From Paroceanicella profunda (lineage in GTDB: Bacteria; Pseudomonadota; Alphaproteobacteria; Rhodobacterales; Rhodobacteraceae), in the NCBI RefSeq assembly GCF_005887635.2, contig NZ_CP040818.1:1-64000 (forward strand): DNA of 64,000 nucleotides, given 5' to 3'. Under the pieces are notes generated by a model, which saw only the letters and a program-made list of their open reading frames with translations, did not search any database and was not told the origin of the DNA. The position numbers and the translations under genes are program-made. This document shows positions 4,195-62,453 of the stretch, one piece after another; position 1 is the stretch's first letter, and each line of letters starts with the position of its first letter.

Positions 4195-4313
4195 GTCGCG
4201 CCCGGCCTTCCGCCGCGGTCGGCCTTCGATCGCGCCCGACCTGCCGTCATGCCCGGCCTGCCGTCGCACCCGGCCCTCCGCCGCGCCCGGCCTTACGTCG
4301 CGCCCGGCCGTGC
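4195..4313. repeat. 17-bp degenerate tandem repeat, 7 units, 3' of recF
   Basis: Seven consecutive units of the pattern GTCGCGCCCGGCCTTCC, each 17 bases with 1-5 substitutions, begin 21 bases after the recF stop. No unit is shared with the other arrays of the window. The array carries no convincing reading frame of its own. Confidence 0.8.
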
Positions 4314-4464
4314 AGCACGCTGCGTCGCGTCGATGGCGGCGGTCCGGGTTCCCGGCATTTCCGGAGCACGCGCGCGGGCGCGCGGGGATGCACTCCCCAT
4401 GTCCGCCCGTGGCGATTTCTTGCGAACAGGGGCCATGCGGGGCGCCCCGGGCGCCCTGCAGCCC

Positions 4465-4493
4465 TTGCCCGCGGGCGCGCGCGTACCGATATT
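4465..4493 (+). promoter_or_regulatory. Promoter abutting the VOC gene start
   Basis: TTGCCC (4465-4470), a 17-base spacer and GATATT (4488-4493). A start point 6-7 bases after the -10 would fall on or beside ATG 4500, so the transcript may be leaderless or nearly so. Confidence 0.4.
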
Positions 4494-4499
4494 GAAGGA

Positions 4500-4925: not shown

Positions 4926-4969
4926 GGGAAAAAACCCGTCTCCGGGCCGATTCCCCCCCCCCCGTGCGC

Positions 4970-7440
<2,471 letters not shown>

Positions 7441-17497: not shown

Positions 17498-17672
17498 GCG
17501 GGAGGCGCGGGCCCGCCCGGGCCCGGGCCCTGCCCCGGGCAGCGGACTGGCCGGTGCCGCGCCCGGGAAGACCGTCACGCTCCGTGCATCGCTCACAAGT
17601 CTCCGGTCGTGAGCCGGGCGCCCCGCGGTCCGCTCTTACCCCCGTGCCGCCCTGTCCCCACGCGCCACCGAA

Positions 17673-18022
17673 GCGTGGAGCGTGGAGCGTGGAGCGTGGA
17701 GCGTGGAGCGTGGAGCGTGGAGCGTGGAGCGTGGAGCGTGGAGCGTGGAGCGTGGAGCGTGGAGCGTGGAGCGTGGAGCGTGGAGCGTGGAGCGTGGAGC
17801 GTGGAGCGTGGAGCGTGGAGCGTGGAGCGTGGAGCGTGGAGCGTGGAGCGTGGAGCGTGGAGCGTGGAGCGTGGAGCGTGGAGCGTGGAGCGTGGAGCGT
17901 GGAGCGTGGAGCGTGGAGCGTGGAGCGTGGAGCGTGGAGCGTGGAGCGTGGAGCGTGGAGCGTGGAGCGTGGAGCGTGGAGCGTGGAGCGTGGAGCGTGG
18001 AGCGTGGAGCGTGGAGCGTGGA
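17673..18022. repeat. Perfect 7-bp tandem repeat, 50 copies
   Basis: The unit GCGTGGA is repeated 50 times without interruption over exactly 350 bases; phase was checked at each 60-base line. As 7 is not a multiple of 3 and no stop is formed, all six frames are open and read as 7-residue repeats, so long hypothetical frames here are artefacts of the repeat. It lies 176 bases after the aldolase stop and 440 bases beyond the 3' end of gapR, between two convergent genes. The copy number would be hypermutable in vivo and hard to assemble. Confidence 0.98.
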
Positions 18023-18461
18023 TGCCTCCGGACGAACGCCGGTACAAGCCCCTTTCTTGCGGCGCCTTTGAAGAACTCACCGCCGCCCAAGGACCATGTT
18101 TGCAACGCTTCCGCTGAGCACGAAGGGACGCGCCCGACCCTGGGTGGGCGCGGCCACTCTCGTGGTGGGCGCTTTATCTCGAAAGCCCCGGACGAGGGGT
18201 GTGCGGCGTGCGGCATCGCCATCGCGCCCTCCCGGGGGAGGGTCGGGCGCTGCCCGGGCTGGTCGCCCGGGCGGAAGGGGCGAGCTGCGCCGGACCTGTC
18301 GCTCGACGCGGCGCAACGGGGACACGATGTCCGCCGGGGGCCGCAAGGGCGGAGGCCCGGAGGGGCCTTCGCCACGCCCGTCGAGCTGCGGGGGCCGGAA
18401 GGCCCCCTCGGCGAGGCGGGCGTCCCCCGGGCGCGCCGGGAGCGGACGCCCGAAGGCGCGA
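18023..18461. other. Non-coding stretch between the 7-mer array and gapR
   Basis: No gene is supported: frames across it are long only because of base composition and lack starts with ribosome-binding sites or recognisable motifs. It has local GC hairpins such as GCCCGGGC...GCCCGGGC near 18250-18275. No promoter, operator or repeat family was recognised. Confidence 0.5.
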
Positions 18462-21058: not shown

Positions 21059-21166
21059 TCCACCCTGCGGACAGGGCCGGACATCCGGGCCCGGCCCGAC
21101 TATGGCTCCCCGAAGGGGCGCACCCGCTCCGGGCCATGGCCGGGGCGCGCTTGCAGGGCTCCCGCC

Positions 21167-21316
21167 CCTTCGGCCCACACCAGACACTGCCCGTCGGCCC
21201 GCACCGGGCACCGCCCCGCCGACCCACACCGGGCGCCGCCCTGTCGGCCCGCACCGGACACCGCCATGTCGGCCCACACCGGGCACCGTCCTGTCGGGCC
21301 ACACCCGGCGCCGCCC
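21167..21316. repeat. 25-bp tandem repeat, 6 units, between convergent genes
   Basis: Six 25-base units of the type TGTCGGCCCACACCGGGCAC plus 5 further bases, with 2-6 substitutions each, fill most of the 309-base gap between the glycosyltransferase and pleD stops. No gene is supported in the gap. Confidence 0.85.
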
Positions 21317-21367
21317 TGTCAAGCGCGCGGGGCCCGCCGGTGCGTCCCCCCGGCGGCGCGCGTCCGT

Positions 21368-28901: not shown

Positions 28902-29336
28902 CCCCCCGGCGCGGGCACCCCTTCACCCGGCAAATCCAGGGCGCCGGCGGCCCCCTCGCGCGGTGGTTTGCCGGGAGACGCACCCGGGGCAGCACGCCCG
29001 GGGCCAACGGGCCGTCGCGGGATGACCGGGTAGCCCCCCGGCGCTGGGTGCCCCCGATCTCCACGTGGAGTGCACTGCGGGCTTCCGGGCGGGCGCGCCG
29101 CGCAGTGGTCGGGGAACGCCCATGGCGGGCAGCGCGCTTCGGGCTGGCGGACCGTCGCACGAGGAGCGGGCAGCCCCCGACGCGGGTCTCCCGACCGCCG
29201 CGCGGAGTGCGTTGCGGGTTGCCGGGCGCGCGCTGCGCAGTGGGCGGGAGATGCCCGCGGCGGGCAGCCCGCTCCGCTCCGGCGGATCGTCCCAGGAGGA
29301 CCGGGGGGCCCCCGGGCGCGGGGGTCCCGGCCCCGG
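28902..29336. repeat. ~135-bp degenerate tandem repeat, about 3 units
   Basis: A phrase CCCCCGGCGCGGG-like recurs at 28902, 29035, 29173 and 29309, and GTGGAGTGC (29065) recurs as GCGGAGTGC (29201), exactly 136 bases apart. The two complete copies 29065-29200 and 29201-29336 are the most alike; the first is more diverged. The array fills the space 3' of hrpB. No gene is supported. Confidence 0.7.
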
Positions 29337-32551: not shown

Positions 32552-32820
32552 CCGGCCCGATGCGGACCCGGGGTCGAGCACGGCCCGGAAAGGACCTCGA
32601 GCTAGACACAGCCCGGGACGGGCCTCGGGGTCAGCGCGGCCCGGGGCGGCCTCCGCGGCCAGACACGACCCGGGACGGGCTCGTGGCCAGGCATGGTTCG
32701 GGGCGGCGCCCGCGTTCGGCACGGCCCGGGTCGGGCCCCGGGTTCGGCACAGCCCGGGATGGACCCGGGGTTGAACACGGTTCGGGGCGGGCTCTGGCTC
32801 AGCCATGGCCCGAAACCGGC
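32552..32820. repeat. 28-bp degenerate tandem repeat, ~9.5 units
   Basis: Successive units of 28 (twice 29) bases follow the pattern CGGCCCGGGACGGGCCTCGG plus 8 bases ending in GGCA or GACA. The array starts 332 bases upstream of the Rieske gene and ends 29 bases from the stop of the oxygenase gene, i.e. directly 3' of that gene. The stretch 32221-32551 holds no gene and only weak traces of the same pattern. Confidence 0.8.
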
Positions 32821-32848
32821 CTTCGGGGGCAGGAACCGCCCGGCGCCT

Positions 32849-34687: not shown

Positions 34688-34807
34688 CGGCTGCCGCGCC
34701 CGGGGGCCCTCGGGTGCACCGGGTCTGCCCTGCGGCGCCGACAGCGCATCGCACCCCGCCGAACCGGGCCGCATCTGCCGGCGCGCAGCGCGCAGCTCTT
34801 CGCTGCC

Positions 34808-35100
34808 CGCGCACTGTGTCCGGCACGGGCTTGCCGTCGGGCCCCTCGCCGCCGCCCCTCGCGAAGGCGGCTGGGGCCGTCCCGACCCGATCGTGACCTT
34901 CGCTGCCCGCGCGCTGCGTCCGGCGCGGACCTGCCGTCGGGCCCCTCACCGCCGCCCTCGTAAAGGCGCCTTGGGCCGTCTCGACCTGATCGTGACCGTC
35001 GCTGCCCGCGCGCTGCGTCCGGCACGGGCCTGCCGTCGGGCCCCTCGCCGCCGCCCCTCGCGAAGGCGGCTGGGGCCGTCCCGACCCGATCGTGACCGTC
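34808..35100. repeat. ~100-bp tandem repeat, 3 units
   Basis: Units start at 34808, 34908 and 35007 (100, 99 and about 94 bases). Units 1 and 3 are nearly identical over their full length, while the middle unit carries more changes and small deletions. All contain GGCCTGCCGTCGGGCCCCTC-like and CCCGATCGTGACC-like phrases. The array lies 3' of the SDR gene; the rest of the gap leads to the argD promoter. Confidence 0.85.
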
Positions 35101-38804: not shown

Positions 38805-38899
38805 TCCGCCCGGCTCCGCCAAAGCGCGCGCCCGGTACCGGCCAACGCGCGCGCCCCCGGCCCCTGCGGATGCACGCCTGCCGGCCCCGGAGGACCGGT

Positions 38900-39440
38900 C
38901 TGCCAGGCCGGAGGCCAGGTGCCGCGATGCGCATCGCCCCAGCGCATCACTCCCCCCGGGGTAGCGTCCCCTCCTCGCCACCCATGCCGACGCGCGCCTG
39001 CCGGCACCGGCGCTGCGATGCCATAGCCCCGGGCGCGCGCGCCCGCATCACTCCCCCCGGGGAAGCACACCCCTTCCACTCTGCCGACGCACGCCCGCCG
39101 ACACCGGCGAACCGGTCTGTCGGGCCCGGCACTCCGTGTTGAGATGCGCATCGCCGGCGTATCACGCCCCCGGGGTCGCGGCCCCCTCCCGGCCGCCCCT
39201 GCCGATGCGCGCCCGTCGGCACCGGCGGACCGGGCCCGTCGGGCCCGGCACCCGGCGATGCAATGCGCGTCCCCCGACGCGCGCCCACGCGCATTACTCC
39301 CTCGGGGAAGCACACCCCTTCCCGCCACCTCTGCCGATGCACACCCGCCGGCACCGGCGGACCGAGCCTGTCGGGTTCGGCACCCCATGTTGAGATGCGC
39401 ATCGCCCGGCGTATCCCTCCTTCCGGGGTCGCGGCCCCCT
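38900..39440. repeat. ~120-bp tandem repeat with alternating A/B units
   Basis: A phrase CATCACTCCCCCCGGGG-like recurs at about 38943, 39051, 39165, 39294 and 39413. Two types alternate: A with GGGAAGCACACCCCTT, B with GGTCGCGGCCCCCT. The B copies, each with GTTGAGATGCGCATCGCC (39135 and 39377), are 242 bases apart, i.e. the A/B dimer is a higher-order unit. The array is 3' of the sulfotransferase-like gene. The remainder up to 39731 holds no gene. Confidence 0.75.
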
Positions 39441-39731
39441 GCCGGCCGGCCCTGCCGCGCGGCCCCGCCGGGGCCACCTGCCGCCCGCGCGCGGCGGGAG
39501 CCGAGCCTGCGATGGAGGGCTGCGCGTCGCCCTCCGCGCTTGCAGCGAAGGATGTTTCCCCGCTGGCGCAAGGGCATGGCCCGTCGCGCCCGTGGGTCCG
39601 GGCGCGCGCGTCGGCGGGCCCGGCGGTGCGCGCAGGCGGGCCGAGCGACGTGCGCCGGGGGGCGGGGTGGCGTGCCTCACTGAACCGGGCGGATGCAAAA
39701 CGCGAATCTGCTGCACTGCACCCATCGACCC

Positions 39732-41375: not shown

Positions 41376-41638
41376 CATGCGCCGTGCCCTCCGCCGCCGG
41401 CCCCGCGACGGGCGCCGGGACCGCGCCGCCGGGCCGGCCAGCGCACGACCTCCGCACGGGCCACGTCCCCGACGCTGCGTGACATCAGCCATCCCCCCAT
41501 GTCCGCGACATCCCTCTCGAGCGCCATGCCCCCCGCTGCTCCCGTGAGGCGCCCCGCGGGGCCGACCAGAGCTTCGCCACCCACCGCGCCGCAGGGGCAG
41601 TGGCCAGTGCAGCGAGCCCACCGCCCGGCGTGCCCGGC

Positions 41639-41903
41639 GTGGCCGCGCCCTTACCGGTGTCGGGCCGCGTCGCGCGCCGGGCGTGGCAGCGCCATTTCTG
41701 GCACCGAGTCGTGCAGCGGACCGGACCTGGCAACGCCAATCCGCGCGTCGCCCCCCTGCGCCGGGTGTGGCAGCGTAATTCCTTGTATCGGGCCGCGCGA
41801 AGCGTCGGGCGTAGCGGCGCCATTCCGAGTGTCAGGCCGCCCGGCGCCGGACGTGGCGGCACCAAACCCGGGGACCGGACCGCGCGGCGCGCCGGCCTGC
41901 GGT
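41639..41903. repeat. ~44-bp degenerate tandem repeat, 6 units
   Basis: Units of 38-47 bases start GTGGCAGCG or similar (GTGGCCGCG, GGCAACGCC, GTAGCGGCG, GTGGCGGCA) and end in GCCGGGC or similar. The array lies between the terminated DEAD-box gene and the convergent tetR gene, ending 37 bases from the tetR stop. The preceding stretch 41376-41638 holds no gene. Confidence 0.7.
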
Positions 41904-42489: not shown

Positions 42490-42566
42490 CTCTGCGTCTC
42501 GCCTCCCCGGACTGGCCGCGCGCGGCTGCACCGCCCCGCGCCGTCACGCCCGGTTCACAGGCCGGG

Positions 42567-48219: not shown

Positions 48220-48361
48220 CCAGCCCGCGCCGCGCGACCGGCATCGCCCCCTGTCCGGGGCGCGGTGCCCCACGGCGGCGCGCAGCCGACCGCGCTGGTC
48301 GTCGAACGGCGCATCACCGCCGCCGGGAATGCCCTGCCCGACGAGCCCGGCGCCCCCAGCC

Positions 48362-48812
48362 GGTGAGCACCCTCTCCGAAGCGCCCGGTGCGGCCCCTGA
48401 CGGTGCACACCCTGTCCGCAGGGTCCGGCGTGCAGCCCTGTCGATGTGAAGCCCCTCCGAAGGGCCCGGCACACAGCCCCTGCCGATGCGCATGCTGCCC
48501 GAAGGGCCCGGCGTACTGCCCATGCCGGTGAACACTCCCTCCGACGAGTCCGGCGCGCGCCCTGACGGTGAGCACCCTCTCCGAAGGGCCCCCGCACACA
48601 GCCCCTGCCGATGCGCATGCTGCCCGAAGGGCCCGGCGTACTGCCATGCCGGTGAGCACTCACTCCGACGAGTTCGGCGCGCTCCCTGACGGTGAGCACC
48701 CTCTCCGAAGGGCCCCACACAGGCCCTACCGATGCCCATGCTGCCCGAAGGGCTTGGCGTACTGCCCATGCCGGTGAGCACTCCCTCCGACGAGCTCGGC
48801 GCGCGCCCTGGC
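48362..48812. repeat. 41-bp tandem repeat with ~123-bp higher-order unit, 11 monomers
   Basis: Eleven monomers of 39-42 bases. Three monomer types recur in fixed order, starting GGTGAGCACCCTCTCCGAAG, CGATGCGCATGCTGCCCGAA and CGGTGAGCACTCCCTCCGAC. The trimer (about 123 bases) appears three times from 48441 on; the first monomers are more diverged. Trimers resemble each other more than neighbouring monomers do, the classic mark of higher-order amplification. Between cysK and a convergent hypothetical gene; 48813-49017 holds no gene. Confidence 0.88.
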
Positions 48813-49017
48813 GGTGAGTGCCTGGGGCGACGGGGTCCGGGGCAAGCCAGGGCGCCTGCGCTTCGCGCGACTGTCGGACGGAGTGGGGGCCGCTGCCCGC
48901 GACCGTGCAGGGCGAGGCCCGGGTCAGGGCCGCGGAGAGCGCGTGTTGCGCGGCGGAGAGGGGCCCGCCCGGGAGCCGCCCGGCCTTCGGGCCGGACGCA
49001 TCGCCCGTGCGAGGCGC

Positions 49018-49446
49018 TCAGTTGCCGAAGCCGTTCATCAGCAGGATCGCGCACAGCCCCACGGCGGCGATCCAGAAGTATCCGGGAACGATGGCCGTCA
49101 GCCGGGCCAGGCTCAGCGGCTGACCGGGCTGCTGACCGTGCGGCTCGGGCGTGGCGGCGCGCGGGTTGCGCGGCAGCAGCGGCAGGATCCGGGCCGAAAG
49201 GGCGGCGCGATCCGCCTCGCCGATCTGCACGTCGCGGAACGCCGAGAGGCGCTCGGCCAGCCGGGTGGTGGCCGAGGACATCGAAAGATCCGCCAACGCC
49301 GCCGCCTCGCGCCAGGGGTCGACCCCCAGCCGGGCCAGCATCGACATCACGGTAACCGTGCCGCCCCGCTGGTCGAGGCCGACCGACGCGGTCAGGAAGG
49401 GCTCGAATTGCGGATCATTGCCCAGGCGGGTCTGTATCGCTGTCAT
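49018..49446 (-). CDS. Hypothetical protein with C-terminal membrane anchor
   Basis: A 142-residue protein not assigned to a named family. The central part SMLARLGVDPWREAAALADLSMSSATTRLAERL (about 35-67) looks like a conserved helical hairpin seen in Rhodobacteraceae hypothetical proteins, with the phrase L-D/V-D-P-W-x-E-A-A. A Pro/Gln-rich linker (about 92-112) leads to one transmembrane helix, AIVPGYFWIAAVGLCAILLM (about 118-137), so it is probably tail-anchored with the bulk in the cytoplasm. ATG 49446 has GGAG six bases upstream on its strand; the frame extends far upstream without support. Confidence 0.75.
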   Translation of the reverse strand: MTAIQTRLGNDPQFEPFLTASVGLDQRGGTVTVMSMLARLGVDPWREAAALADLSMSSATTRLAERLSAFRDVQIGEADRAALSARILPLLPRNPRAATPEPHGQQPGQPLSLARLTAIVPGYFWIAAVGLCAILLMNGFGN

Positions 49447-49651: not shown

Positions 49652-49760
49652 CGGGCAGACCGGCCGGGTTCGGTATCGGATGCCGCACGGGCAAACCGGC
49701 CGGCTTCGCAGCCGATGCCGCACCGGCAGACCGGCCGGGTTCCCGGCCGTCGCCGCAGGG
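49652..49760. repeat. ~36-bp tandem repeat, 3 units
   Basis: Three units share GGGCAGACCGGCCGGGTTCG-like and GATGCCGCAC-like phrases, at about 49652, 49689 and 49724. The surrounding 49447-50161 holds no supported gene and lies between two minus-strand genes. Confidence 0.7.
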
Positions 49761-50161
49761 ATCCGGTGCGCCATGCCCTGAAATACGCGCGCGTCGCGGG
49801 CTCAGGAACGGGGCACCCGCCGTGCCATCGGAACCCGATGACGCCGCTGCGCACCAGCGAAAGGTCCGGGCCTCGCAAACCCGCGTCGGGGGGAGGAGCA
49901 CCGGCCTCGCGTCTCCGGACTGCCCTGCACGGGAACCCGTCCGCGAAGCGCACTGAGCGGCTGTGGCACGAACCGTTGACCACCTGCGCGTGCCGTTCAC
50001 CGCACCGCGCGGCGGCAGGTCCCCGGTGCTGCAACAGGGCCGCCGCGGGCGACGTGCCGACCTCGCTCCCCCTCCGACCCGAACAGGCGCCGCGCACCGT
50101 GCGGATCAGCAGGGTTTGTGCGGGCACCGCACCATGGACAGTCAGGCGCAGCCACGACGGT

Positions 50162-50278
50162 CACTGGGGCTGGCCCGCGCCCATGCTCCAGGCCAGCAGT
50201 CACGAGGGCTTGCCCGCGCCCGTGCTCCGCGCCGGCGGTCGCAAGGGTTGGCCCGCGCCGGCGGCACGCGCCTGCGGC
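50162..50278. repeat. 39-bp tandem repeat, 3 units
   Basis: Three consecutive 39-base units begin CACTGGGGCT, CACGAGGGCT and CGCAAGGGTT, each followed by GGCCCGCGCC-like sequence. The array ends 65 bases beyond the stop of the minus-strand gene at 50344. Confidence 0.75.
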
Positions 50279-50343: not shown

Positions 50344-50625
50344 TCAGCCCGCGGCGGAGACTTTCGCGGCTGCCGGCTTGCGGGCCTTCGCTGTCGCGGC
50401 CGTGGCGCGCTTCGCGGGCGCCTTCACCGGCGTGGCCGCTGCCAGCTCGGCCTTCTGGCGCTCAGATTCCAGCCGGGCCGCGCGCAGACGGCGGGTCTTG
50501 TCCTCGCGCTCGGTGGTCTCCTCCAGGATGATCGCTCTCGCGATGTCGCTGGTGTTGGCGGCGCTGGTGCGCGGCTGAGCGGGCTTGAACAACGGGATGC
50601 GTCTGGTCAGGTCATCGATCTGCAT
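50344..50625 (-). CDS. Small basic hypothetical protein with histone-like tail
   Basis: A 93-residue cytoplasmic protein. The N-terminal part MQIDDLTRRIPLFKPAQPRT is followed by a charged helix IARAIILEETTEREDKTRRLRAARLESERQKAEL (about 28-61) and a Lys/Ala/Pro-rich tail VKAPAKRATAATAKARKPAAAKV (about 67-89) that resembles the low-complexity tails of histone-H1-like proteins. Nucleic-acid binding is a reasonable guess but there is no recognised domain. ATG 50625 has AAGGGG seven bases upstream. It lies 226 bases downstream of the transglutaminase-like gene's end, in the same direction. Confidence 0.7.
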   Translation of the reverse strand: MQIDDLTRRIPLFKPAQPRTSAANTSDIARAIILEETTEREDKTRRLRAARLESERQKAELAAATPVKAPAKRATAATAKARKPAAAKVSAAG

Positions 50626-52366: not shown

Positions 52367-55300
52367 ATGACCTCGGGCAGGACGTGGACCCTGGCGGGCC
52401 GCGCAGCCGGGCGGGCGGTCGCGGGCGCCCTCCCCTCCCTCTCCCGGAGAGACGCGCAGGCCGGCGGGCACCTCTGGTCCGACCGCTCGGCGATCCGGGC
52501 CGAGAAGTTCGGCATCGAACGGCTGGAGCAGCACGCGATCAGCCTCGCCGCGGCCCAGCAGGTGGCGGAGCACCCAGCGCGCGTCACCGGGCTGCATCGC
52601 CGGCTGGACGACAACGCCGCCGCCCTGCTGGCCGCCTGGAAATCCTGCATGCACGAGGTGGCCGCGGGGCGCCCCGTGGTGCCGGCGGCCGAGTGGCTGC
52701 TGGACAATTACCACCAGGTGGAGATGCAGATCGTCGAGATCCGCACCGACCTGCCGCCGCGCTACTACCGGCTGCTGCCCAAGCTCGCCTCGGGGCCGTT
52801 TCGCGGCTACCCCCGGGTATTCGAGCTGGTCTGGGCCTTCGTCGCCCACACCGACAGCCACGTCGACCCGGAGGTGCTGCGCCGCTTCCTCACCGCCTAT
52901 CAGACCGTGCAGCCGCTCACCATCGGTGAGCTGTGGGCCGTGGCCATCACCCTGCGGATCGTGCTGCTGGAGAACCTGCGCCGCCTCACGGACCAGATCC
53001 TGCAGGCCCGCAGCCGGCGCGCCCAGGCGGACCGGCTGGCGGACCGGCTGCTGAACGCGGGCGCGGCGGAGGGCGGCGCCGGCCTCGGCCACCCGCACCT
53101 GCTCGACGCGGTGCTGCGCCATGACGACGGCCGGATCTCCGAGATCTTCGCTGCCGAGCTCGTCCGGCGCCTGCGCGATTTCGACCCCCGCACCACCCCG
53201 GCGGTGGACTGGCTGGAGGGCCAGCTGCGCGCCCAGGGCGCGAGCTTCGACAGCGTCGTCCAGCATGCGCAGGAGCGGCAGGGCGCCTCGAACCTGAGCG
53301 TGCGCAACGTGATCACCGGGCTGCGCACCATCTCCGAGATGGACTGGCCGGACCTGTTCGAGACCGTGAGCCTGGTCGAGGCCCGCCTGCGCGGGCATCC
53401 CGGCTTCGCGGAGATGGATTTCGCCAGCCGCAACCTCTACCGCAGCGCCATCGAGGATCTCGCCCGCGGCACCGGGCTGGACGAGATCGGCGTGGCGGAG
53501 ACCGCCATCGCCCGGGGCGCCGCGGCGCGCGCGCGCCTCATCGACCACCCGGAGCCGGACCCGGCCCGCCGTGCCCGGGCGCTGCGGCTCTGCGACCCCG
53601 GCTGCCACCTGCTGGCCGAGGGCCGCCCCGCCTTCGAGACCCTCATCGGCTACCGCGCGCCGGGGCTGCTGCGCTTCGGCCTGCGCCCGGGGCTGGGCGG
53701 CTACGTGGGGGCGATCCTCGGGCTCACCTGCGCCGTCCTCGCCCTCGCGCTCTGGGCGCTGGCCGCGGGCGGCGCCTCCGCGGCGCAGCTCGTGCTCTGG
53801 GGCCTGCTGGCGCTGATCCCGGCCAGTGCCGTGGCCCAGCCGCTGGTCGACAGGATCGCCGCCCGGGCGGTGCCCGCCACCCCCCTGCCCGGGCTGGCGC
53901 TGGAGGAGGGCGTGCCGGCGGAACTGCGCACCCTGGTCGTGGTGCCCGCGCTGCTGACCACGGCCGCCGACCTCGCCACGCTGGTCACCGAGCTGGAGGT
54001 CCACCACCTGTCCGGCGCCGGGGGCGACATCACCTTCGCCCTGCTCACCGACGGCACAGACGCGCCGCAGCGCGACATGCCCCGCGACGCGCCCCTGCTC
54101 GCCCAACTCACCGCGGAGATCGCGGCGCTGAACCTGCGCTGCGGCCCCGGCCCGGCCGGACCGCGCTTCCTGCACCTGCACCGCCGGCGGCAGTTCAACG
54201 CCGCGGAGGGGGTCTGGATGGGCTGGGAGCGCAAGCGCGGCAAGCTGCATGAGCTGAACCGGCTGCTGCGCGGCGCCACCGACACCGGCTACTCGGACGC
54301 GGAGGGCCGCGCGCCGCCCGTGCCCGCAGGGGTGCGCTACGTCCTCACCCTCGACAGCGACACGCGGATGCCGCGGGACGCGGCCACCCGGCTGATCGGC
54401 AAGATGGCACATCCCCTGAACCGCCCGGTGCTGGACACGGCCCGGCGGCGGGTGACCGCGGGCCACGCGATCCTGCAGCCCCGGGTCTCGCCCGCCCTGC
54501 CGATGATCGACCTCGGCTCGGCCTTCCTGCGCGCCACCTCCGCGCCCGGCGGCATCGACCCCTACGCGGCGGCCGGGTCGGACATCTTCCAGGACCTGTT
54601 CGGCGAGGGCTCCTACACCGGCAAGGGCATCTACGACGTGGACGCCTACGAGAGCGTGATGGCCGGCCGGGTTCCGGAGAACACGCTGCTGAGCCACGAC
54701 CTGCTGGAGGGGATCTTCGCCCGCGCCGGGCTCGCCTCCGATGTCGAGGTGGTCGAGGCCTTCCCGGACCGGCAGGACCTCGCCGCCCGGCGCGCGCACC
54801 GCTGGTGCTGCGGAGACTGGCAGCTTCTGCCCTGGCTCGGGCCCTCCGGCGGGCTGCCCGCGCTCGGGCGCATCAAGATCCTCGACACCCTGCGCCGCTC
54901 GCTCGTGCCGCCCGCGGTCCTGCTGATGTTGGCGGCGGGCTGGCTGCTGCCGCTGCCCGCCGCGCTCATCTCCTGCGTGCTGGTGCTCACGGTGCTGACG
55001 ATGCCGCCGCTGCTGCACGCGGTGCTGTCGGCGCTGCCGCACCGGCGCGGGCTGCACCTGCGCACCCATCTGCGGCTGATGCGCGGGGATTTCCGGCTGG
55101 CCGCCCTGCAGGGCGGCATGGAACTCGCGCTGCTGCCGGACCGCGCCTGGCGCGCGGCCGACGCGATCGGGCGCACGCTCTGGCGGCTCGGCGTCTCGCA
55201 CCGGCACCTGCTGGAGTGGACGACGGCCGCCGCGGCCGCCGGCCGCACGCGCCCGGGCCTGCGCCGCATCCTGCGCGACCTCGCCCCCGGCCTCACGCTG

Positions 55301-58300
55301 GCGCTGGCGCTGGCGCTCGGCGCCGGGCTTCTGATGCCCTCCGCACTGCCGCTCATCCTGCCCTTCGTGCTGGCCTGGGCCGCGAGCCCGCTCATCGTGC
55401 GCGCCATCAACCGCCAGCCGGCGGCGAGGGAAACCGCGCTGACGCCGGCGCAGACCACCGAACTGCGGCTCATCGCCCGCCGCACCTGGAGCTTCTTCGA
55501 AACCTTCGTGACCGCGGCCGACAGTTTCCTGCCGCCGGACAATTTCCAGGAGGACCCGCACCCGGTCATCGCGCACCGCACCTCGCCCACGAACATGGGG
55601 CTCTACCTGCTCTCCACGGTCGCGGCGCATGACTTCGGCTGGAGCGGGCGCGGCGCCACCGCGACCCGGCTCGCCGCCACGCTGGAGCGCATGCAGGGCC
55701 TGGCACGCCTGCACGGGCATTTCTACAACTGGTATGACACGACCGACGGCCGGGTGCTGGACCCGCCCTATGTCTCGACCGTCGACAGCGGCAACCTGGC
55801 CGGCCATCTCATCGTGCTCGCCAATGCCTGCGAGGACTGGGCGCAGGACGCGGCCACGCCCGCCGCCGCCGGTCTGCGAGACACGCTGGCGCTGGTGCTG
55901 GCCGAGCCCGTCCCCGCCGACCCCGCCCTGCGGGAGGTGCTCGACAGCCTGCGGGCCGGGCTGGCCGCCCCCGCGCCGGAGCTCGCGGCGCTCCTGCGCC
56001 TCGCGCGGAAGGCGCAGGCGCTGGCGGGCGCCCGCAGCCCGGACGGCGTGGACAGCCCCGACGCGCTGGCCCACTGGATCGGCGCGCTGGAGCGCGGCCT
56101 TGCGGAGCATTGCGCCGATGCGGCGCTGGCGGACGCGGCCCGCGGCGCCCTTGCCGCGCGCTTCGCCGCGCTCGGCCGCCAGGCCCGCGAGATGGCCATG
56201 GCGATGGATTTCACCTTCCTGCTCGACCCGAGGCGCAAGCTCCTCTCCATCGGCTACGCGCCGGTGGAGGGCACGCTGGACCGGGGCTGCTACGACCTGC
56301 TGGCCTCCGAGGCCCGGCTGGCCAGCCTCTTCGCCGTGGCCAAGCAGGACCTGCCGCTGCGCCACTGGTTCCGCCTGGGCCGCACCGCAACGCCCCTGCC
56401 CGGCGGGCAGGCGCTGATGTCCTGGTCCGGCTCGATGTTCGAGTACCTGATGCCGCCCCTGGTGATGATCGAACCCGAGAGCAGCCACATGGGCCGGTCC
56501 TGCCAGCTGGTGGTGGCGCGCCAGCAGGCCTATGCCGCGGCGCTCGGCGTGCCCTGGGGCATCTCGGAATCCGGCTTCAACGCCCGCGACACCGCCTTCA
56601 CCTACCAGTATTCCAACTTCGGCGTGCCCGGGCTGGGCCTGAAGCGCGGGCTGGCGGGCGACCTGGTGATCGCGCCCTATGCCACGGCCCTGGCCGCGAT
56701 GTTCGCCCCCGCCGCCGCCTGCCGCAACTTCGAGCGCATCGCCATTGCCGGCGGGCTGGGCCGGCACGGCTTCTACGAGGCGCTGGACTACACGCCCGCG
56801 CGCATCCTGCCGGGGGAGACTGTGGCCGTGGTGCACAGCTACATGGCCCATCACCAGGGCATGAGCATCACCGCCATCTCGAACGTGCTCTCGGGCGGGC
56901 GCATGCGCCGCCGCTTCCACGCCGAGCCGATGATCCGCGCCAGCGAACTGCTGCTGCAGGAGCGCCTGCCGCGCGACATCTCGCGCGTGCCGCCGCGCAT
57001 CGACGAGGCCACCCCGGCCCGGATCCTCCGCCTCCCCGCCGGCCAGAGGGTGCGCCGGTTCAGCGGCGGGCCGAGCGGGCCCGCGGAAACCCAGCTGATG
57101 TCGAACGGGCGCTATTCGGTGATGCTCACCGCCACCGGCGGCGGCTACAGCCGCTGGGGCGACATGGCCCTCACCCGCTGGCAGCCCGATGCCACCACCG
57201 ACGGCCAGGGCAGCTTCCTCCACCTGCGCGAGTGCGCCTCGGGGGCGCTCACCTCCTTCGGGCCGGGCTTCGGGCCGGGCTTCGCCCAGGACGGCTTCCC
57301 CGCCGCCGCTGGCGCCGGGGCCCCGGAAGTGCAGTTCCACGAGGACAGGGCACGGTACTCCTGCCGCGCCGGCCGGCTGAGCTGCAAGCTCGACATCATC
57401 GTCTCGGCGGAGACCGATGCGGAGATCCGTTGCCTCACGGTGCTCAACACCAGCCGCAAGCCGCGCGAGATCGACGTCACCTCCTACGCCGAGCTGGCGC
57501 TCACCCGGCCGGAGGCAGAGGCCGCCCACCCGGCCTTCGCCCACATGTTCGTGCAGACCGCCTTCCTGCCGGAATTCGGCGCGCTGATCGCCTGGCGCCG
57601 CCCGCGCGGGCCGGGCGAGCCCGGCATCTGGGCCGCCCATTTCGCCGTGATCCACGGCACCGCGACGGAACCGCCGCACTTCGACACCGACCGCGCCACC
57701 GCCCTGGGCCGCGACCGGCCGAGCGCACGCCGCGCGCAGGTGACCGGGCCGGGCCCGCTGGCCGGGCGCACCGGCACCGTGCTCGACCCGGTGTTCGCGC
57801 TGCGCCACCGGGTGAGCATCGCCCCCGGCGCTTCCGCCCGCCTGATGTTCTGGACCGTGGCCGCGGCCAGTCGCGAGGAGCTGATCGCCCTCATCGACCA
57901 CCACCATGACCGCAACGCCGTGGACCGGGCCCGCACCCTGGCCTGGACCCAGGCGCAGGTGCAGCTGCGCCACCTCGGCATCACCGACCGCGAGGCGGCG
58001 GATTTCCAGCGCCTCGCGGCACCGCTGCTCTATCATGACGCGCGCTTCCGGGCCTCCGGCCTTGCCCTGCAACAGGGGATCGGCCCGCAGTCCGGCCTCT
58101 GGCCGCTGGCCCTGTCCGGCGACCGGCCGATCGTGCTGCTGCGCATCGATGACGCGGCCGACCTGAAGCAGGTCCGCACCCTGCTGCAAGCCCATGAATA
58201 CTGGGGCGGCAAGCAGCTTGCCGTGGACCTGGTGATCCTCAACGACCACCCGCCCAGCTACGTGCAGGACCTGCAGCTGGCCATCGAGGCCGCCGTGCGC

Positions 58301-61300
58301 AGCAGCCATTCCCGCACCCGGACCGGGCCCGGCCCGGCCGGCCAGAGCAGCGCGGGCGGCGACGTGCGCGTGCTGCGCGCCGACCTCGCGCCGCCGGAGG
58401 CCGTCCGGCTGCTGCTGGCCGTGGCCCGGGTGGTGCTCTATGCCCGGCGTGGCTCGATCCGTGACCAGCTCGCGCGCATCCTGAAGACTGCGCCGGAAGC
58501 CGGGCAACCGGCAATCGCCGTCGCGTCCCCCGTCCCGGCGGCCGCCGACGCGTCCCCCCTCCCGGCGGCCACCGGTGCAGTCCCCGTCCCGGCAACTGCC
58601 GTCGCGTCCCTCGTCCCGGCGATTACCGGTGCGGTCCCTGTCCCACCAGCCGCCGGCGCAGTCCCCGTCCCACCAACTGCCGTCGCATCCCCCGTCCCGC
58701 CGGCCACCGGCGCGGTCCCTGTCCCACCAGCCGCCGGCGCAGTCCCCGTCCCAGCAACTGCCGTCGCGTCCCCCGTCCCAGCGGCCACCGGTGCAGTCCC
58801 TGTCCCACCAGCCGCCGGCGCAGTCCCCGTCCCGGCGGCCACCGGCGGATCCGCGCCATTCCTGCGCCAGCCAGCCGGCGCTGACCCGACCGCCCCCGTG
58901 CTGTCAGCTTCCGCAGCGGCAGGCCCCGGCCCGGCTGTGTCCGCCTCGCCCGCGTCCGTCGGGGCAGCCTCCGCCCGCCCGGCACCCGGCCGGACGGCCG
59001 ATGCCCGGTCTGCCGCCATCCAGTCCGCCACCCCGGGCCTCGCGGCTTCGGACACTCCCGCTTCGCCTGCGCCTGTGTCCGGACCCCGCCCCCCCGCGCC
59101 GTCCCTGCCGGTCGCGCCCGGGCAGGCCCCGTCGCCGCAGCCGCCCGGCACGCTGGCGACGCAGGCTCCCACCGTTCCGGTGCCGGCGGCGCTGCCTCCC
59201 GACGCCCCCGGCCCGTCACCGCTCCGTTCGACCGCGCCGGCCCCGTCCCCCCTGCCTCCCTCTGCGCCTGCCCCGTTTCCGCAGCCTGCCAACGCACCGG
59301 CGCAGGCGGCTGCCACCCGTGCTCCGCAAGCCCTGCCCGCGCCTGGACTGCCCGTGCCCGGCTTGCCCGTGCCTGGCTTGGCCGCGTCTGGCCTGCCCGC
59401 GTCTGGCCTGCCCGCGTCTGGCCCGCCCGCGTCTGGCCCGCCCGCGTCTGGCCTGTCCGTGCATGGCCTGTCCGTGCATGGCCTGCCCGTGCATGGCCTG
59501 CCCGTGCATGGCCTGCCCGTGCATGGCCTGCCCGCACCAGGTCTGTCGATGTCGGGTTTGTCTACGCCGGATCCGACCATGCCCGGGGCCAGCCCTTCCC
59601 TGTCGGGATCCGCCCCGGCACTTCCTGTGGGCGCGGCCGGGGCGGGCGCGTCGCAGGGCGGGCCTTCGGCCGCTCCTGCCGGGGCGTCGCCCTCCGGCGA
59701 GGCGCTGGAATTCTTCAACGGCACCGGGGGGTTCGCCCGCGACGGGCGGGAATACGTGTGCTGCCTTCACGAGGGCAGTGCCACGCCGGCCCCCTGGATC
59801 AACGTGCTTGCGAACCCCGGCTTCGGCTGCCAGGTCTCGACCACCGGCAGCGGCTATGTCTGGTCCGGCAACAGCCGCGACAACCAGCTCACCGCCTGGA
59901 GCAACGACGCCGTGGCCGACCCGCCGGGCGAGGCGTTCTACATCCTCGACGAGGCCACGGGCCGCATCGTCTCGCCCACCGCCTCGGTGCTGCGCGACGC
60001 GGGCAGCTACACCGCCCGCCACGGCTTCGGCTACAGCCGCTTCGAACATCACGCCGGCGGGCTCAACTGCGCGCTGCTGCAGTTCGTGCCGCTGGAGGAC
60101 CCGGTGCGGATCTCGCGCCTGGTGCTGCACAACCCCGGCGCCACCGCCCGCACGCTGAGCGTGATCGCCTATGCCGAGCCGGTGATGGGCACCTCGCGCG
60201 CCGCCTCCGCCCCGATGCTCTACACCGGGCAGGACCCGGAGACCGGCGCGCTCTTCGCCCGCAATCCCTGGGCCGAGGGCGGCGCACAGCGGGTGATGTT
60301 CAGCGATCTCGCCGGCGCGCAGACCAGCTGGACCGGCAATCGCACCGAGATCCTCGGCCCCGGGGGCCGCGTGGCGGAGCCGCGCGGGCTGGGCACCGGC
60401 CTCGGCCTGTCCGGCAACACCGGCGCCGGGCGCGACCCCTGCCTCGCGCTGCTGCAACCGGTGGTGCTGGCGCCGGGGGAGACCGTCACCCTCACCCACC
60501 TGCTGGGCGAATGCCCGGACGCGCAGAGCGCCGCGGCCCTCATCACCCGGCTGCGCGCGACCGACCCCGACACGCTGCTCGCGGAGGTGGAGGCGCACTG
60601 GGAGCGCCTGCTCGGCGCCGTGCAGGTCACCACCCCGGACAGGGCCTTCGACATCATGGTGAACGGCTGGCTGCTCTACCAGACCCTCGCGTGCCGGATC
60701 ACCGCGCGCAGCGGCTTCTACCAGGCCAGCGGCGCCTACGGCTTCCGCGACCAGTTGCAGGACGGCATGGCGCTCAGCCTCGCCTGCCCCGCGCTCACCC
60801 GCGCCCACCTGTTGCGCGCGGCCGGGCGGCAGTTCCCGGAGGGCGATGTGCAACACTGGTGGCTGCCCGCCACCGGGCGCGGGGTGCGCAGCCGCATCTC
60901 GGACGATTGCGTCTGGCTGGGCCACGCGGTGGCCGAATACGTGGCCACCTCGGGCGACAGCGCGGTGCTCGACGAACAGGTGGCCTTCCTGGAGGGCCCA
61001 CCCGTGGCGCCGGAGGAGGCGGACGCCTTCTTCCTGCCCGGGGTGAGCGCGGCGCAGGCCTCGGTCTATGAGCATTGCGCGCTGGGGCTGGACCGCGCCC
61101 TGTCGCTGCTCGGCCCGCAGGGCCTGCCCCTGATGGGCGCGGGAGACTGGAATGACGGCATGAACCGGGTGGGGATCGGGGGGCGCGGGGAAAGCGTCTG
61201 GCTCGGCTGGCTGCTGCTGCGCACGCTGGACGCCTTCGCGCCGCTGGCCGATGCGCGCGAGCCCGCCCGCGCCGGCCGCTGGCGCGCCGCCGCCGACACC

Positions 61301-62107
61301 CTGCGCGACGCGGTGGAGGAGTGCGCCTGGGACGGCGCCTGGTATCGCCGCGCCACGTTCGACGACGGAACCTGGCTCGGGGCCGACGGCCCGGGGCCGT
61401 GCCGGATCGATTCCATCGCCCAGAGCTGGGCCGTGCTCTCCGGCCGGGCCGACCCCGCGCGGGCCGCCGCGGCGATGGTCTCTTTCGACGCGCAGCTGGT
61501 GCGGCGCGAGGCCGGGCTGGCGCTGCTGTTCACCCCGCCCTTCGACGGCGGCGCGCCGGATCCGGGCTACATCGCCGCCTACCCGCCGGGCCTGCGCGAG
61601 AACGGCGGGCAATACACCCATGCCGCCGCCTGGGCGGTGCTCGCCTGGGCCGGCCTGGGGGAGGGAGACCGCGCGGCGGAGCTCTTCGCCCTGCTCAACC
61701 CCATCTCGCATGCCCGCACCCCGGAGCAGGCCGCGCGCTACCGCACGGAACCCTACGTGATGGCCGCCGACATCTACTCCGAACCGCCCCACACCGGGCG
61801 CGGCGGCTGGACATGGTACACCGGCTCCGCCGCCTGGATGCAGCGCGCGGCGGTGGAGGGCATCCTGGGCATCACGCGCGAGGGCGACCATGTCCGCGTG
61901 GCCCCCTGCCTGCCGCGCGCCTGGCCGGAGTGCGGCGTGACCCTGCGCGTCGAGGGAACGGCGATCGCCATCCGCATCCTGCGCGGCAGCCCCTGCGGCA
62001 GCACGCTCGACGCCCGCCCGATGGCCGCGCACGCGCCCCTGCTCGTGCCGCTCGACGGCGCGCAGCACACCCTCACCATCACCCTGCCGCCCGCAGACCG
62101 GGCCTGA
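52367..62107 (+). CDS. ndvB: NdvB/ChvB-like cyclic beta-1,2-glucan synthase with a large low-complexity insert
   Basis: Inner-membrane enzyme that builds and closes cyclic beta-1,2-glucan from UDP-glucose for the periplasm. 3,246 residues versus about 2,800-2,870 for known NdvB. A helical N-terminal region is followed by two membrane segments (about 445-498). The GT84 domain has LTLDSDTRMPRDA near 661, NTLLSHDLLEG near 772 and the R-x-x-RW element RRAHRWCCGDWQ near 808. More membrane helices lie at 848-888 and 975-1018. The glycoamylase-like domain has SGFNARDTAFTYQYSNFGVPGLG (about 1402) and YMAHHQGMSIT (about 1490). The GH94 phosphorylase domain ends the protein with DCVWLGHAVAEY (about 2846) and the catalytic-Asp motif GAGDWNDGMN (about 2923). 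Residues about 2040-2440 are a Pro/Ala/Gly-rich insert containing two DNA repeat arrays. ATG 52367 is the first supported start, though its ribosome-binding site is poor. Confidence 0.93.
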   Translation: MTSGRTWTLAGRAAGRAVAGALPSLSRRDAQAGGHLWSDRSAIRAEKFGIERLEQHAISLAAAQQVAEHPARVTGLHRRLDDNAAALLAAWKSCMHEVAAGRPVVPAAEWLLDNYHQVEMQIVEIRTDLPPRYYRLLPKLASGPFRGYPRVFELVWAFVAHTDSHVDPEVLRRFLTAYQTVQPLTIGELWAVAITLRIVLLENLRRLTDQILQARSRRAQADRLADRLLNAGAAEGGAGLGHPHLLDAVLRHDDGRISEIFAAELVRRLRDFDPRTTPAVDWLEGQLRAQGASFDSVVQHAQERQGASNLSVRNVITGLRTISEMDWPDLFETVSLVEARLRGHPGFAEMDFASRNLYRSAIEDLARGTGLDEIGVAETAIARGAAARARLIDHPEPDPARRARALRLCDPGCHLLAEGRPAFETLIGYRAPGLLRFGLRPGLGGYVGAILGLTCAVLALALWALAAGGASAAQLVLWGLLALIPASAVAQPLVDRIAARAVPATPLPGLALEEGVPAELRTLVVVPALLTTAADLATLVTELEVHHLSGAGGDITFALLTDGTDAPQRDMPRDAPLLAQLTAEIAALNLRCGPGPAGPRFLHLHRRRQFNAAEGVWMGWERKRGKLHELNRLLRGATDTGYSDAEGRAPPVPAGVRYVLTLDSDTRMPRDAATRLIGKMAHPLNRPVLDTARRRVTAGHAILQPRVSPALPMIDLGSAFLRATSAPGGIDPYAAAGSDIFQDLFGEGSYTGKGIYDVDAYESVMAGRVPENTLLSHDLLEGIFARAGLASDVEVVEAFPDRQDLAARRAHRWCCGDWQLLPWLGPSGGLPALGRIKILDTLRRSLVPPAVLLMLAAGWLLPLPAALISCVLVLTVLTMPPLLHAVLSALPHRRGLHLRTHLRLMRGDFRLAALQGGMELALLPDRAWRAADAIGRTLWRLGVSHRHLLEWTTAAAAAGRTRPGLRRILRDLAPGLTLALALALGAGLLMPSALPLILPFVLAWAASPLIVRAINRQPAARETALTPAQTTELRLIARRTWSFFETFVTAADSFLPPDNFQEDPHPVIAHRTSPTNMGLYLLSTVAAHDFGWSGRGATATRLAATLERMQGLARLHGHFYNWYDTTDGRVLDPPYVSTVDSGNLAGHLIVLANACEDWAQDAATPAAAGLRDTLALVLAEPVPADPALREVLDSLRAGLAAPAPELAALLRLARKAQALAGARSPDGVDSPDALAHWIGALERGLAEHCADAALADAARGALAARFAALGRQAREMAMAMDFTFLLDPRRKLLSIGYAPVEGTLDRGCYDLLASEARLASLFAVAKQDLPLRHWFRLGRTATPLPGGQALMSWSGSMFEYLMPPLVMIEPESSHMGRSCQLVVARQQAYAAALGVPWGISESGFNARDTAFTYQYSNFGVPGLGLKRGLAGDLVIAPYATALAAMFAPAAACRNFERIAIAGGLGRHGFYEALDYTPARILPGETVAVVHSYMAHHQGMSITAISNVLSGGRMRRRFHAEPMIRASELLLQERLPRDISRVPPRIDEATPARILRLPAGQRVRRFSGGPSGPAETQLMSNGRYSVMLTATGGGYSRWGDMALTRWQPDATTDGQGSFLHLRECASGALTSFGPGFGPGFAQDGFPAAAGAGAPEVQFHEDRARYSCRAGRLSCKLDIIVSAETDAEIRCLTVLNTSRKPREIDVTSYAELALTRPEAEAAHPAFAHMFVQTAFLPEFGALIAWRRPRGPGEPGIWAAHFAVIHGTATEPPHFDTDRATALGRDRPSARRAQVTGPGPLAGRTGTVLDPVFALRHRVSIAPGASARLMFWTVAAASREELIALIDHHHDRNAVDRARTLAWTQAQVQLRHLGITDREAADFQRLAAPLLYHDARFRASGLALQQGIGPQSGLWPLALSGDRPIVLLRIDDAADLKQVRTLLQAHEYWGGKQLAVDLVILNDHPPSYVQDLQLAIEAAVRSSHSRTRTGPGPAGQSSAGGDVRVLRADLAPPEAVRLLLAVARVVLYARRGSIRDQLARILKTAPEAGQPAIAVASPVPAAADASPLPAATGAVPVPATAVASLVPAITGAVPVPPAAGAVPVPPTAVASPVPPATGAVPVPPAAGAVPVPATAVASPVPAATGAVPVPPAAGAVPVPAATGGSAPFLRQPAGADPTAPVLSASAAAGPGPAVSASPASVGAASARPAPGRTADARSAAIQSATPGLAASDTPASPAPVSGPRPPAPSLPVAPGQAPSPQPPGTLATQAPTVPVPAALPPDAPGPSPLRSTAPAPSPLPPSAPAPFPQPANAPAQAAATRAPQALPAPGLPVPGLPVPGLAASGLPASGLPASGPPASGPPASGLSVHGLSVHGLPVHGLPVHGLPVHGLPAPGLSMSGLSTPDPTMPGASPSLSGSAPALPVGAAGAGASQGGPSAAPAGASPSGEALEFFNGTGGFARDGREYVCCLHEGSATPAPWINVLANPGFGCQVSTTGSGYVWSGNSRDNQLTAWSNDAVADPPGEAFYILDEATGRIVSPTASVLRDAGSYTARHGFGYSRFEHHAGGLNCALLQFVPLEDPVRISRLVLHNPGATARTLSVIAYAEPVMGTSRAASAPMLYTGQDPETGALFARNPWAEGGAQRVMFSDLAGAQTSWTGNRTEILGPGGRVAEPRGLGTGLGLSGNTGAGRDPCLALLQPVVLAPGETVTLTHLLGECPDAQSAAALITRLRATDPDTLLAEVEAHWERLLGAVQVTTPDRAFDIMVNGWLLYQTLACRITARSGFYQASGAYGFRDQLQDGMALSLACPALTRAHLLRAAGRQFPEGDVQHWWLPATGRGVRSRISDDCVWLGHAVAEYVATSGDSAVLDEQVAFLEGPPVAPEEADAFFLPGVSAAQASVYEHCALGLDRALSLLGPQGLPLMGAGDWNDGMNRVGIGGRGESVWLGWLLLRTLDAFAPLADAREPARAGRWRAAADTLRDAVEECAWDGAWYRRATFDDGTWLGADGPGPCRIDSIAQSWAVLSGRADPARAAAAMVSFDAQLVRREAGLALLFTPPFDGGAPDPGYIAAYPPGLRENGGQYTHAAAWAVLAWAGLGEGDRAAELFALLNPISHARTPEQAARYRTEPYVMAADIYSEPPHTGRGGWTWYTGSAAWMQRAAVEGILGITREGDHVRVAPCLPRAWPECGVTLRVEGTAIAIRILRGSPCGSTLDARPMAAHAPLLVPLDGAQHTLTITLPPADRA
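58526..58849 (+). repeat. 27-bp in-frame tandem repeat in ndvB, 12 units
   Basis: Twelve 27-base units encode nonapeptides of three alternating types, VPVPPAAGA, VPVPATAVA and SPVPAATGA, so an 81-base higher-order unit is visible. The frame is kept throughout. It opens the low-complexity insert between the glycoamylase-like part and the GH94 part of the glucan synthase. Confidence 0.93.
59333..59572 (+). repeat. 15-bp in-frame tandem repeat in ndvB, 16 units
   Basis: Sixteen 15-base units encode pentapeptides such as LPVPG, LPASG, PPASG, LSVHG and LPVHG. Runs of identical units (three LPVHG, two PPASG, two LSVHG) show recent local amplification. The array ends the insert shortly before the GH94 half resumes at about 59700. 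Confidence 0.93.
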
Positions 62108-62380
62108 CACCGCACCGCGCCCGGGCGGGGGGCGGCACCGTCGGGGCCATCGCCGCGCCCCACCGGGCGTCCCGGCGGGGCGGCCCCGGGGCAGCGGCCC
62201 CGGAGCGTCGGCGCGCGCCGGCAGGCCCGCTGCACGGGCCTTCACCGGGGTGCGGCCGGGCAGAGACGGGTCGGGCGCGCGCTCCCGGGCACCGCGGAGG
62301 GAGAGACATCCCCCACCTGCCCGAGGCCCGGTCCGGCCCGTGGCCATCGCTCCGAGGACACCGGCCTGTGGTGACCGCTC

Positions 62381-62453
62381 CGGGCCCGCCGGTCCGAGCC
62401 CCGCCGGTCCGGGCCCGCCACTCCGAAGCCGCCGGTCCGAGCCCCATCGATCC
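62381..62453. repeat. ~15-bp degenerate tandem repeat, ~5 units, 3' of ndvB
   Basis: Units of the type GCCCGCCGGTCCGA (14-17 bases), such as CGGGCCCGCCGGTCCGA and GCCCCGCCGGTCCGG, lie in the 488-base gap after the glucan synthase. The remaining parts of the gap (62108-62380 and 62454-62595) hold no gene. Confidence 0.6.

Follow-up and report, generated by a model that had tools for sequence, protein, structure and literature searches.

Tandem repeat arrays are frequent on the chromosome of Paroceanicella profunda, where they favour the gaps between convergent genes, nearly every locus has a unit of its own, and the near-perfect arrays are most often heptameric. We analysed them in a window of 64,000 nucleotides at the start of contig C1 (4,039,866 bp), one of the seven contigs of the 5.47-Mb genome, in further samples of the same genome and in related genomes. 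A first-pass annotation of the window had proposed a genome-wide process acting on locus-private segments in non-promoter DNA, and both the comparison of gap classes and that with shuffled sequences support this proposal. The pattern is real and strong. Its core is ordinary in kind, that of slippage-born repeats tolerated at gene ends; its unusual features are the density of the arrays, the privacy of their units, the preference for heptamers, the convergent bias and a link to a conserved palindrome of 147 bp.

The arrays are, in our assessment, probably fast-turnover variable-number tandem repeat (VNTR) loci, made by slippage and unequal exchange and tolerated where they hit no promoter or reading frame. 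Extrapolation from 23 near-perfect arrays in 1,064 of 4,040 kb gives about ninety on the chromosome, about half of them heptamers. Why seven bases? And do facing gene ends make the repeats or merely tolerate them?

Arrays and the orientation of neighbouring genes

Arrays were called with Tandem Repeats Finder (TRF; score at least 75 in the window), merged, and then placed against genes. Our larger sample joins the window to 50 stretches of 20 kb, making 1,064 kb of the 4.04-Mb chromosome: one stretch (L095) was picked because it carried a BLAST hit, synteny decided the choice of 8, the others are regularly spaced, and most lie within the first 1.6 Mb. A smaller sample of 564 kb provided 334 gap sequences, and 15 stretches (300 kb) came from the other contigs. 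We call an array near-perfect when its match is 95% or higher, it has 5 or more copies and its period does not exceed 20 (the match limit was 94% in the survey of element loci below). The sister genome is one further genome of the same genus (G001), a draft in 110 contigs, with one genome compared per species; syntenic DNA of the two aligns at 80-92% identity, which makes a gap-by-gap comparison feasible.

In the larger sample, arrays with a score of at least 150 are found in 33 of 117 convergent gaps, 27 of 465 tandem gaps and 0 of 126 divergent gaps (convergent versus divergent, p=2e-12). At a score of at least 100 the corresponding counts are 40, 36 and 5; the sample holds 100 arrays at this level, 11 of them outside called gaps, in coding sequences or at stretch edges. 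The other contigs have arrays of score 100 in 6 of 29 convergent, 8 of 121 tandem and 1 of 36 divergent gaps. Within the tandem gaps of the smaller sample, 21 of 30 arrays are closer to the 3' end of the upstream gene. The 334 gaps of that sample contain 57 arrays of score at least 100, whereas none of 20 dinucleotide-preserving shuffles produced a single one. Density is thus equal neither between convergent and divergent gaps nor to that of random sequence, two outcomes that would have spoken against the first-pass proposal. Its further statement that divergent gaps contain no array stands for the window (0 of the 10 clear arrays) and fails for the genome (5 of 126 gaps, and 3 of 17 arrays in the sister): divergent gaps are poor in arrays, not empty.

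Near-perfect arrays show the same preference. Fifteen of the 23 sit in convergent gaps; counted by gap, they occur in 14 of 117 convergent, 6 of 465 tandem and 1 of 126 divergent gaps, with one array outside gaps. When the count is restricted to DNA 150 bp or more from any start codon, in gaps of at most 1 kb of both species, their density is 0.44 per kb in convergent gaps, 0.10 in tandem gaps and 0 in divergent gaps.

Several observations weigh against tolerance as the whole explanation, or against the strength of the data behind it. The convergent excess over tandem gaps in DNA far from starts is significant (25 arrays in 56.3 kb versus 6 in 63.1 kb, p=0.0002; 0 in 12.7 kb of divergent gaps) and persists when arrays linked to the 147-bp element are removed (18 versus 5 in both species, p=0.003; 15 versus 5 in P. 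profunda alone, p=0.012). Promoter-side purging alone therefore falls short of a full account of the convergent bias. For near-perfect arrays, the comparison of convergent with divergent gaps at distances of 150-200 bp does not reach significance (p=0.09, 0.23), because little such DNA exists. Shared cassettes make the element-linked arrays non-independent, and arrays in the 110-contig draft of the sister may be shortened or lost. Genes come from our own codon-usage caller rather than a standard annotation; Pfam matches back most of the scanned genes flanking arrays. Copy number was compared between two species, and both unit and number differ between them. Finally, the window array at 21162-21320 has no two-level pattern by lag match (0.74 at 25, 0.67 at 75).

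From the convergent excess far from starts it follows that either tandem gaps are purged as transcribed DNA or convergence helps to make arrays, two options that are not separable here, neither of them proven as the source of the bias. Transcription may still run through tandem gaps, which would leave room for selection. The second option could be taken further: head-on transcription, read-through or trapped supercoils would break or stall the DNA, repair or restart would duplicate short stretches, and selection would play a minor part. We regard this as a serious but rather unlikely alternative. Per permissive base, convergent gaps do hold roughly four times as many near-perfect arrays as tandem gaps, the bias survives the removal of element-linked arrays, and the near-perfect arrays of the sister sample are distributed alike (5 convergent, 1 tandem, 0 divergent). 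However, convergence is not sufficient, as related GC-rich genomes have convergent gaps and few arrays in the samples, and purging of transcribed tandem gaps could produce the same difference.

Private units and their change between species

The 23 near-perfect arrays have periods of 7 (12 arrays), 8 (5), 6 (2), 12, 17, 18 and 19 (one each); one further array, of period 23, was listed besides them. The remaining arrays have longer periods and are degenerate, and some have two levels of repetition. The larger sample has only 5 decayed arrays with a period of 20 or less and, given this scarcity, the short-period arrays look as if they were young or kept uniform. The first-pass annotation had mentioned relics of replication slippage: slippage fits best, but the perfect arrays of 7-8 bp look recent or actively homogenised. 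Its description of every locus as having its own unit was nearly accurate: the 38 near-perfect arrays of the two species use 36 distinct units, two of which occur twice, and three loci of P. profunda (L236, L238, L246) share one unit along with copied flanks. The outer flanks of these 38 arrays are A-rich in their first five bases (0.23, versus 0.11-0.16 further out). Two candidate causes were rejected. Seeding by stop codons was suggested by CTGAG or CTCAG in 7 of the 38 units (expected 0.7), yet no more than 2 such arrays have a stop within 2 bp; loss of MutS does not apply, MutS being present in P. profunda, in the sister and in 9 further genomes.

Units differ between the two species at some orthologous sites. 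We compared 156 orthologous adjacent gene pairs, 20 of which have an array of score at least 100 in P. profunda; 6 of these 20 gaps have one in the draft sister too, and 14 have none there. Five of the six array pairs are without blastn similarity at E 0.01 and the remaining pair shares a 21-bp stretch. Sister-only arrays were found in four orthologous gaps (one convergent, one tandem, two divergent). Beside the gapR-type gene, (AGCGTGG)x50 in P. profunda faces (AGCCGGA)x18 in the sister; both arrays end before an identical ATGCCT and the register is kept, the last heptamer being AGCGCGC in the sister and AGCGTGG in P. profunda. At another locus, where P. profunda has (AGGCGGTG)x9, the sister seems to hold one similar 8-mer, as read by eye at this one place.

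On our preferred explanation, that of tolerated fast-turnover loci, each array would be born from local sequence through strand slippage, which yields short units, above all of 7-8 bp, while the longer and sometimes two-level units would come from growth or reshaping by unequal exchange. Arrays would persist between gene ends, where no promoter, ribosome-binding site or reading frame is disrupted by them, and would be purged by selection elsewhere. The site could outlive its unit: an array shrinks, a variant unit expands again, and the repeat, sometimes with its period, stays while the word changes.

Gaps with an array in P. profunda are more likely to have one in the sister (Mantel-Haenszel odds ratio of about 14, stratified by gap class, with gap length uncontrolled), and a gapR-type gene adjoins the strongest array of the window (17672..18022). 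Both observations would suit arrays acting as functional 3' ends, whether as terminators, as roadblocks or as topology buffers, and maintained by selection, but we judge such a role improbable, and the first-pass suggestion of 3' ends or topology buffers found no support. RNA from the arrays folds no better than RNA from control arrays whose units were permuted (76 strands, mean z +0.38) and shows no excess of terminator hairpins; moreover, the 14 arrayless sister gaps are hard to reconcile with such a function. A gapR-linked array as a trait of the family is rejected, as no array of score 100 was found at 30 gapR loci from other genera of the family (loci from 30 of the 76 matching genomes).

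The arrays appear to be a trait of the genus. Near-perfect arrays number 0.022 per kb in P. profunda, 0.016 in the sister and 0.006 in Albimonas (1 in 181 kb), and Rubrimonas (97 kb), G067 (80 kb) and Xanthobacter (101 kb) yielded none, the samples being small. Across 80 loci of relatives (1.37 Mb), only 8 arrays have a score of at least 100. Albimonas sp. CAU 1670 has a perfect (CTCTCCGC)x16 array with an 8-bp unit (L004:15349-15477), a word near the CCGCTCT heptamers of this genus. Assemblers are prone to errors in long perfect arrays. We nevertheless hold an assembly or sequencing artefact to be very improbable: the separately assembled sister has arrays of like kind, period and location bias, and Albimonas has a perfect array as well.

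Parts of this picture are already in print: a lean of short tandem repeats (STRs) towards transcript ends (PMC12699852), an excess of heptamers (PMC4692102), and locus-unique, fast-evolving units in Borgs (PMC9879509). The first paper reports that bacterial genomes are poor in STRs and that these are weakly enriched on both the upstream and the downstream side of genes; its discussion adds that they prefer positions downstream of transcript ends. The second finds heptamers over-represented among bacterial repeats and quotes an idea of polymerase-size slippage; its Xanthomonas GGGAATC and Nostoc repeats each have a single unit common to their loci, with co-oriented genes flanking most Xanthomonas sites and convergent genes flanking 11% of the Nostoc sites. 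Our arrays resemble such VNTR or simple sequence repeat loci in their short, perfect, intergenic units, their preference for heptamers and a number of head-to-tail copies beyond chance. They differ from those loci in their high density, in the private unit of nearly every locus and in the strong preference for convergent gaps; unlike REP/BIME or Xanthomonas-type repeats, they have no one unit common across loci. In the third paper, Borg repeats turn over rapidly, consist of perfect copies, have a different unit at virtually every locus and, when coding, have periods divisible by three, and ours resemble them in these traits. However, Borg repeats belong to extrachromosomal elements of archaea and 43-65% of them are in reading frames, whereas ours sit on a bacterial chromosome and other replicons, are mostly intergenic and, when near-perfect, mostly have periods of 7-8 bp; of our 100 arrays, the 11 that fall outside called gaps, a few of them at stretch edges, are far from the half or so found in frames there. 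Literature searches on tandem repeats with convergent bacterial genes, in Rhodobacteraceae or linked to mobile elements returned no description of the combination among the papers listed; they covered open-licence papers only and are weak evidence of absence.

A 147-bp palindrome beside heptamer arrays

Several heptamer arrays have a common 147-bp sequence in their flanks. A whole-genome search, with 40 candidates scored in each genome, gave at least 27 matches in P. profunda, of which 20 span nearly the full length, and at least 47 in the sister. Twenty-seven copies of 146-150 bp align at 89% mean identity, and their inverted arms are nearly invariant. The element fits the description of an ERIC-like dispersed intergenic palindrome of fixed length. 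ERIC, RIME and REP/BIME sequences are dispersed, conserved intergenic palindromes, and the element shares these traits and a high copy number with them; it differs by the heptamer arrays beside it, by the lack of a detected RAYT and by matching no Rfam family at the cut-offs applied. BOX elements have a boxB unit common across loci: as there, a conserved module adjoins a tandem module of variable copy number, but here the heptamer differs between most element copies.

Arrays lie mainly on one side of the element. Among 21 loci examined in P. profunda, a near-perfect array lies within 220 bp on the 3' side in 10, on the 5' side only in 1, and is missing in 10; the 30 loci examined in the sister have one on the 3' side in 7 cases and none in 23. 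In total, 17 of the 18 array-bearing loci have it on the 3' side, two of them on the 5' side as well. All these arrays are heptamers except one of 12 bp (in P. profunda, 10 of 11 loci are heptameric). The association is clear when all examined loci of P. profunda are set against convergent gaps without the element (11 of 21 versus 16 of 95, p=0.001) and holds for the loci outside the stretches in which it had been found (6 of 11, p=0.01); within the sampled stretches alone it is weak (4 of 8 versus 16 of 95, p=0.044; sister, 2 of 5 versus 3 of 23, p=0.21). In this genus, heptamer arrays probably form or settle preferentially beside the palindrome, perhaps through polymerase pausing or recombination at it.

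The element holds its place in 13 ortholog pairs. Three of these have a heptamer array in both species and the heptamers differ (read along the element, ACTGGTC/CCGCTCA, CCCTGAG/TGCGCCT and CCACGCT/TCCGGCT); 5 have an array in P. profunda only, 5 in neither and 0 in the sister only, numbers too small to show inheritance. Two of the element loci with changed heptamers come in addition to the set of orthologous gaps described above. Identity between orthologs (0.864 over 11 pairs) is not above that between paralogs (0.868, 0.880), which points to strong constraint or gene conversion. Loci L236, L238 and L246 have a common 3' flank in addition to their unit, and the sister orthologs of L236 and L238 have neither, a distribution that suggests ectopic copying; some array-bearing cassettes have accordingly probably been copied between element loci by ectopic recombination.

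Could the arrays be part of a mobile or recombining element, palindrome and flanking cassette together, and spread with it? The frequent adjacency, the 3' polarity and the shared cassettes would fit, but we find this doubtful. Only 4 of the 20 convergent gaps of at least 150 bp with a near-perfect array in the sampled stretches of P. profunda contain the element, and most of the sampled near-perfect arrays lie in gaps without it, so that it is rejected as a universal carrier. Copies kept in place in 13 ortholog pairs are old rather than freshly moving, and none of the 24 element loci examined in other genera has a near-perfect array. A RAYT/REPIN origin was also rejected: the Y1 transposase (PF01797) was not found in P. 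profunda (G000) or the sister (G001), with a positive E. coli control. The element matches at least in part in at least 152 of 295 genomes of the family (best two candidates per genome), many over the first 35-60 bases only; together with the 24 arrayless loci outside the genus, this indicates that the element is probably older than the arrays.

A bolder possibility, to which we give little credence, is a site-specific generator: certain convergent tails and the 3' side of the element would repeatedly yield perfect seven-base arrays, period and place being inherited and the word rewritten between species and between paralogous copies. Such a site would encode "make heptamer array here" and not the sequence of the array.

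The palindrome is a conserved feature of the family without an Rfam match. Rfam gave no gathering-level match in the window, and none at E<=0.1 in five other loci, four with an element copy, from this genus or a relative. A Guanidine-III RNA candidate within the element (18166-18222; 18.8 bits versus the 36 needed, E 0.34) was treated as a chance match. No compensatory changes were seen (0 of 38 pairs changed on both sides), and since the arms hardly vary, covariation is uninformative here. The element is itself tandemly repeated in L251, L253 (G001 C92:127152-127897) and L288 (G155 C1), at spacings of about 200 bp and 181 bp.

Arrays of the window and their neighbours

Ten of the 12 non-coding arrays of the first-pass annotation are clear by TRF, as are the two that it placed inside a long gene labelled ndvB. 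By our gene calls, the ten lie in 3 convergent, 7 tandem and 0 divergent gaps, and 2 of the 7 tandem-gap arrays (49652, 62333) are closer to a neighbouring gene start than to a 3' end. The other two claims fared less well. At 38900, three copies of 63-76% are irregularly spaced and the match at lag 120 (0.416) is inside the range of shuffles (maximum 0.441); at 41639, the match of 0.503 exceeds that of shuffles (maximum 0.429).

Features of the 64-kb window (positions on the whole stretch)
Feature	Position	Location	Support and comparison
17-bp degenerate array, 6.8 copies	4195..4309	tandem gap after recF-type gene, 20 bp past 3' end	TRF; sister gap of 71 bp without array
perfect heptamer array (AGCGTGG)x50	17672..18022	convergent gap, HpcH/HpaI aldolase gene (+) / gapR-type gene (-)	TRF; sister (AGCCGGA)x18 at equivalent place
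147-bp palindromic element copy	18126..18271	strand -	heptamer array 104 bp away on 3' side of element
second dispersed intergenic repeat, family of L101:2286-2423	18331..18439		some 40 matches of the repeat in the sister
25/75-bp degenerate array	21162..21320	convergent gap, glycosyltransferase (+) / GGDEF response regulator (-)	TRF; none of score 100 in sister gap
135-bp degenerate array	28987..29329	tandem gap (-,-), adjoins 3' end of hrpB-type helicase gene	TRF
28/57-bp degenerate array	32569..32832	tandem gap (-,-), adjoins 3' end of 2OG-Fe(II) oxygenase gene	TRF; sister gap of 124 bp without array
99-bp array, 3.0 copies, 88%	34800..35100	tandem gap (+,+), after short-chain dehydrogenase gene	sister orthologous gap: 25-bp array, no detectable similarity
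~120-bp array claimed at 38900	38864..39457		diffuse, diverged direct repeats only
~44-bp array claimed at 41639	41632..41824	convergent gap	weak; three unevenly spaced copies, two at 71-74% of reference
two-level array	48354..48818	convergent gap after PALP-family enzyme gene, facing gene 49018-49446	TRF, 65% at period 40, 89% at 124
35-bp array, 3 copies	49652..49757	tandem gap (-,-), closer to start of 49018-49446 than to 3' end of 50344-50625	TRF
39-bp array, 2.6 copies	50160..50259	tandem gap between 49018-49446 and 50344-50625, closer to 3' end	TRF
27/81-bp array	58508..58847	in 3246-aa gene (ndvB of the first-pass annotation), +	TRF; periods divisible by three
15-bp array, 13.6 copies	59332..59535	in 3246-aa gene (ndvB of the first-pass annotation), +	TRF; period divisible by three
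14/29-bp array	62333..62444	tandem gap (+,+), 226 bp past 3246-aa gene, 152 bp before next called start	TRF

The two coding arrays both score above 100, and the first of them has a two-level signal, with a lag match of 0.85 at 81 versus 0.72 at 27. On C57, the syntenic contig of the sister, nothing corresponds to the gene that contains them (52367-62107) or to its neighbours; stretches 68-71% similar to this region were found on contig C46. Gene 49018-49446 has no Pfam match. The window has a GC content of 72.9% and starts with dnaA, dnaN, recF-type and gyrB genes. The top matches of a one-protein query belong chiefly to Rhodobacteraceae, the closest named isolate being Albimonas sp. CAU 1670 (83%), in a list that possibly excludes P. 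profunda itself.

The second dispersed repeat of the table is about 100 bp long and has some 40 matches in the sister. In the five divergent gaps named by the first-pass annotation, the strongest repeat is a two-copy 23-bp repeat of score 64 between TetR and MFS genes (42550-42595), a direct-repeat pair which, from the look of its sequence, resembles paired operator sites.

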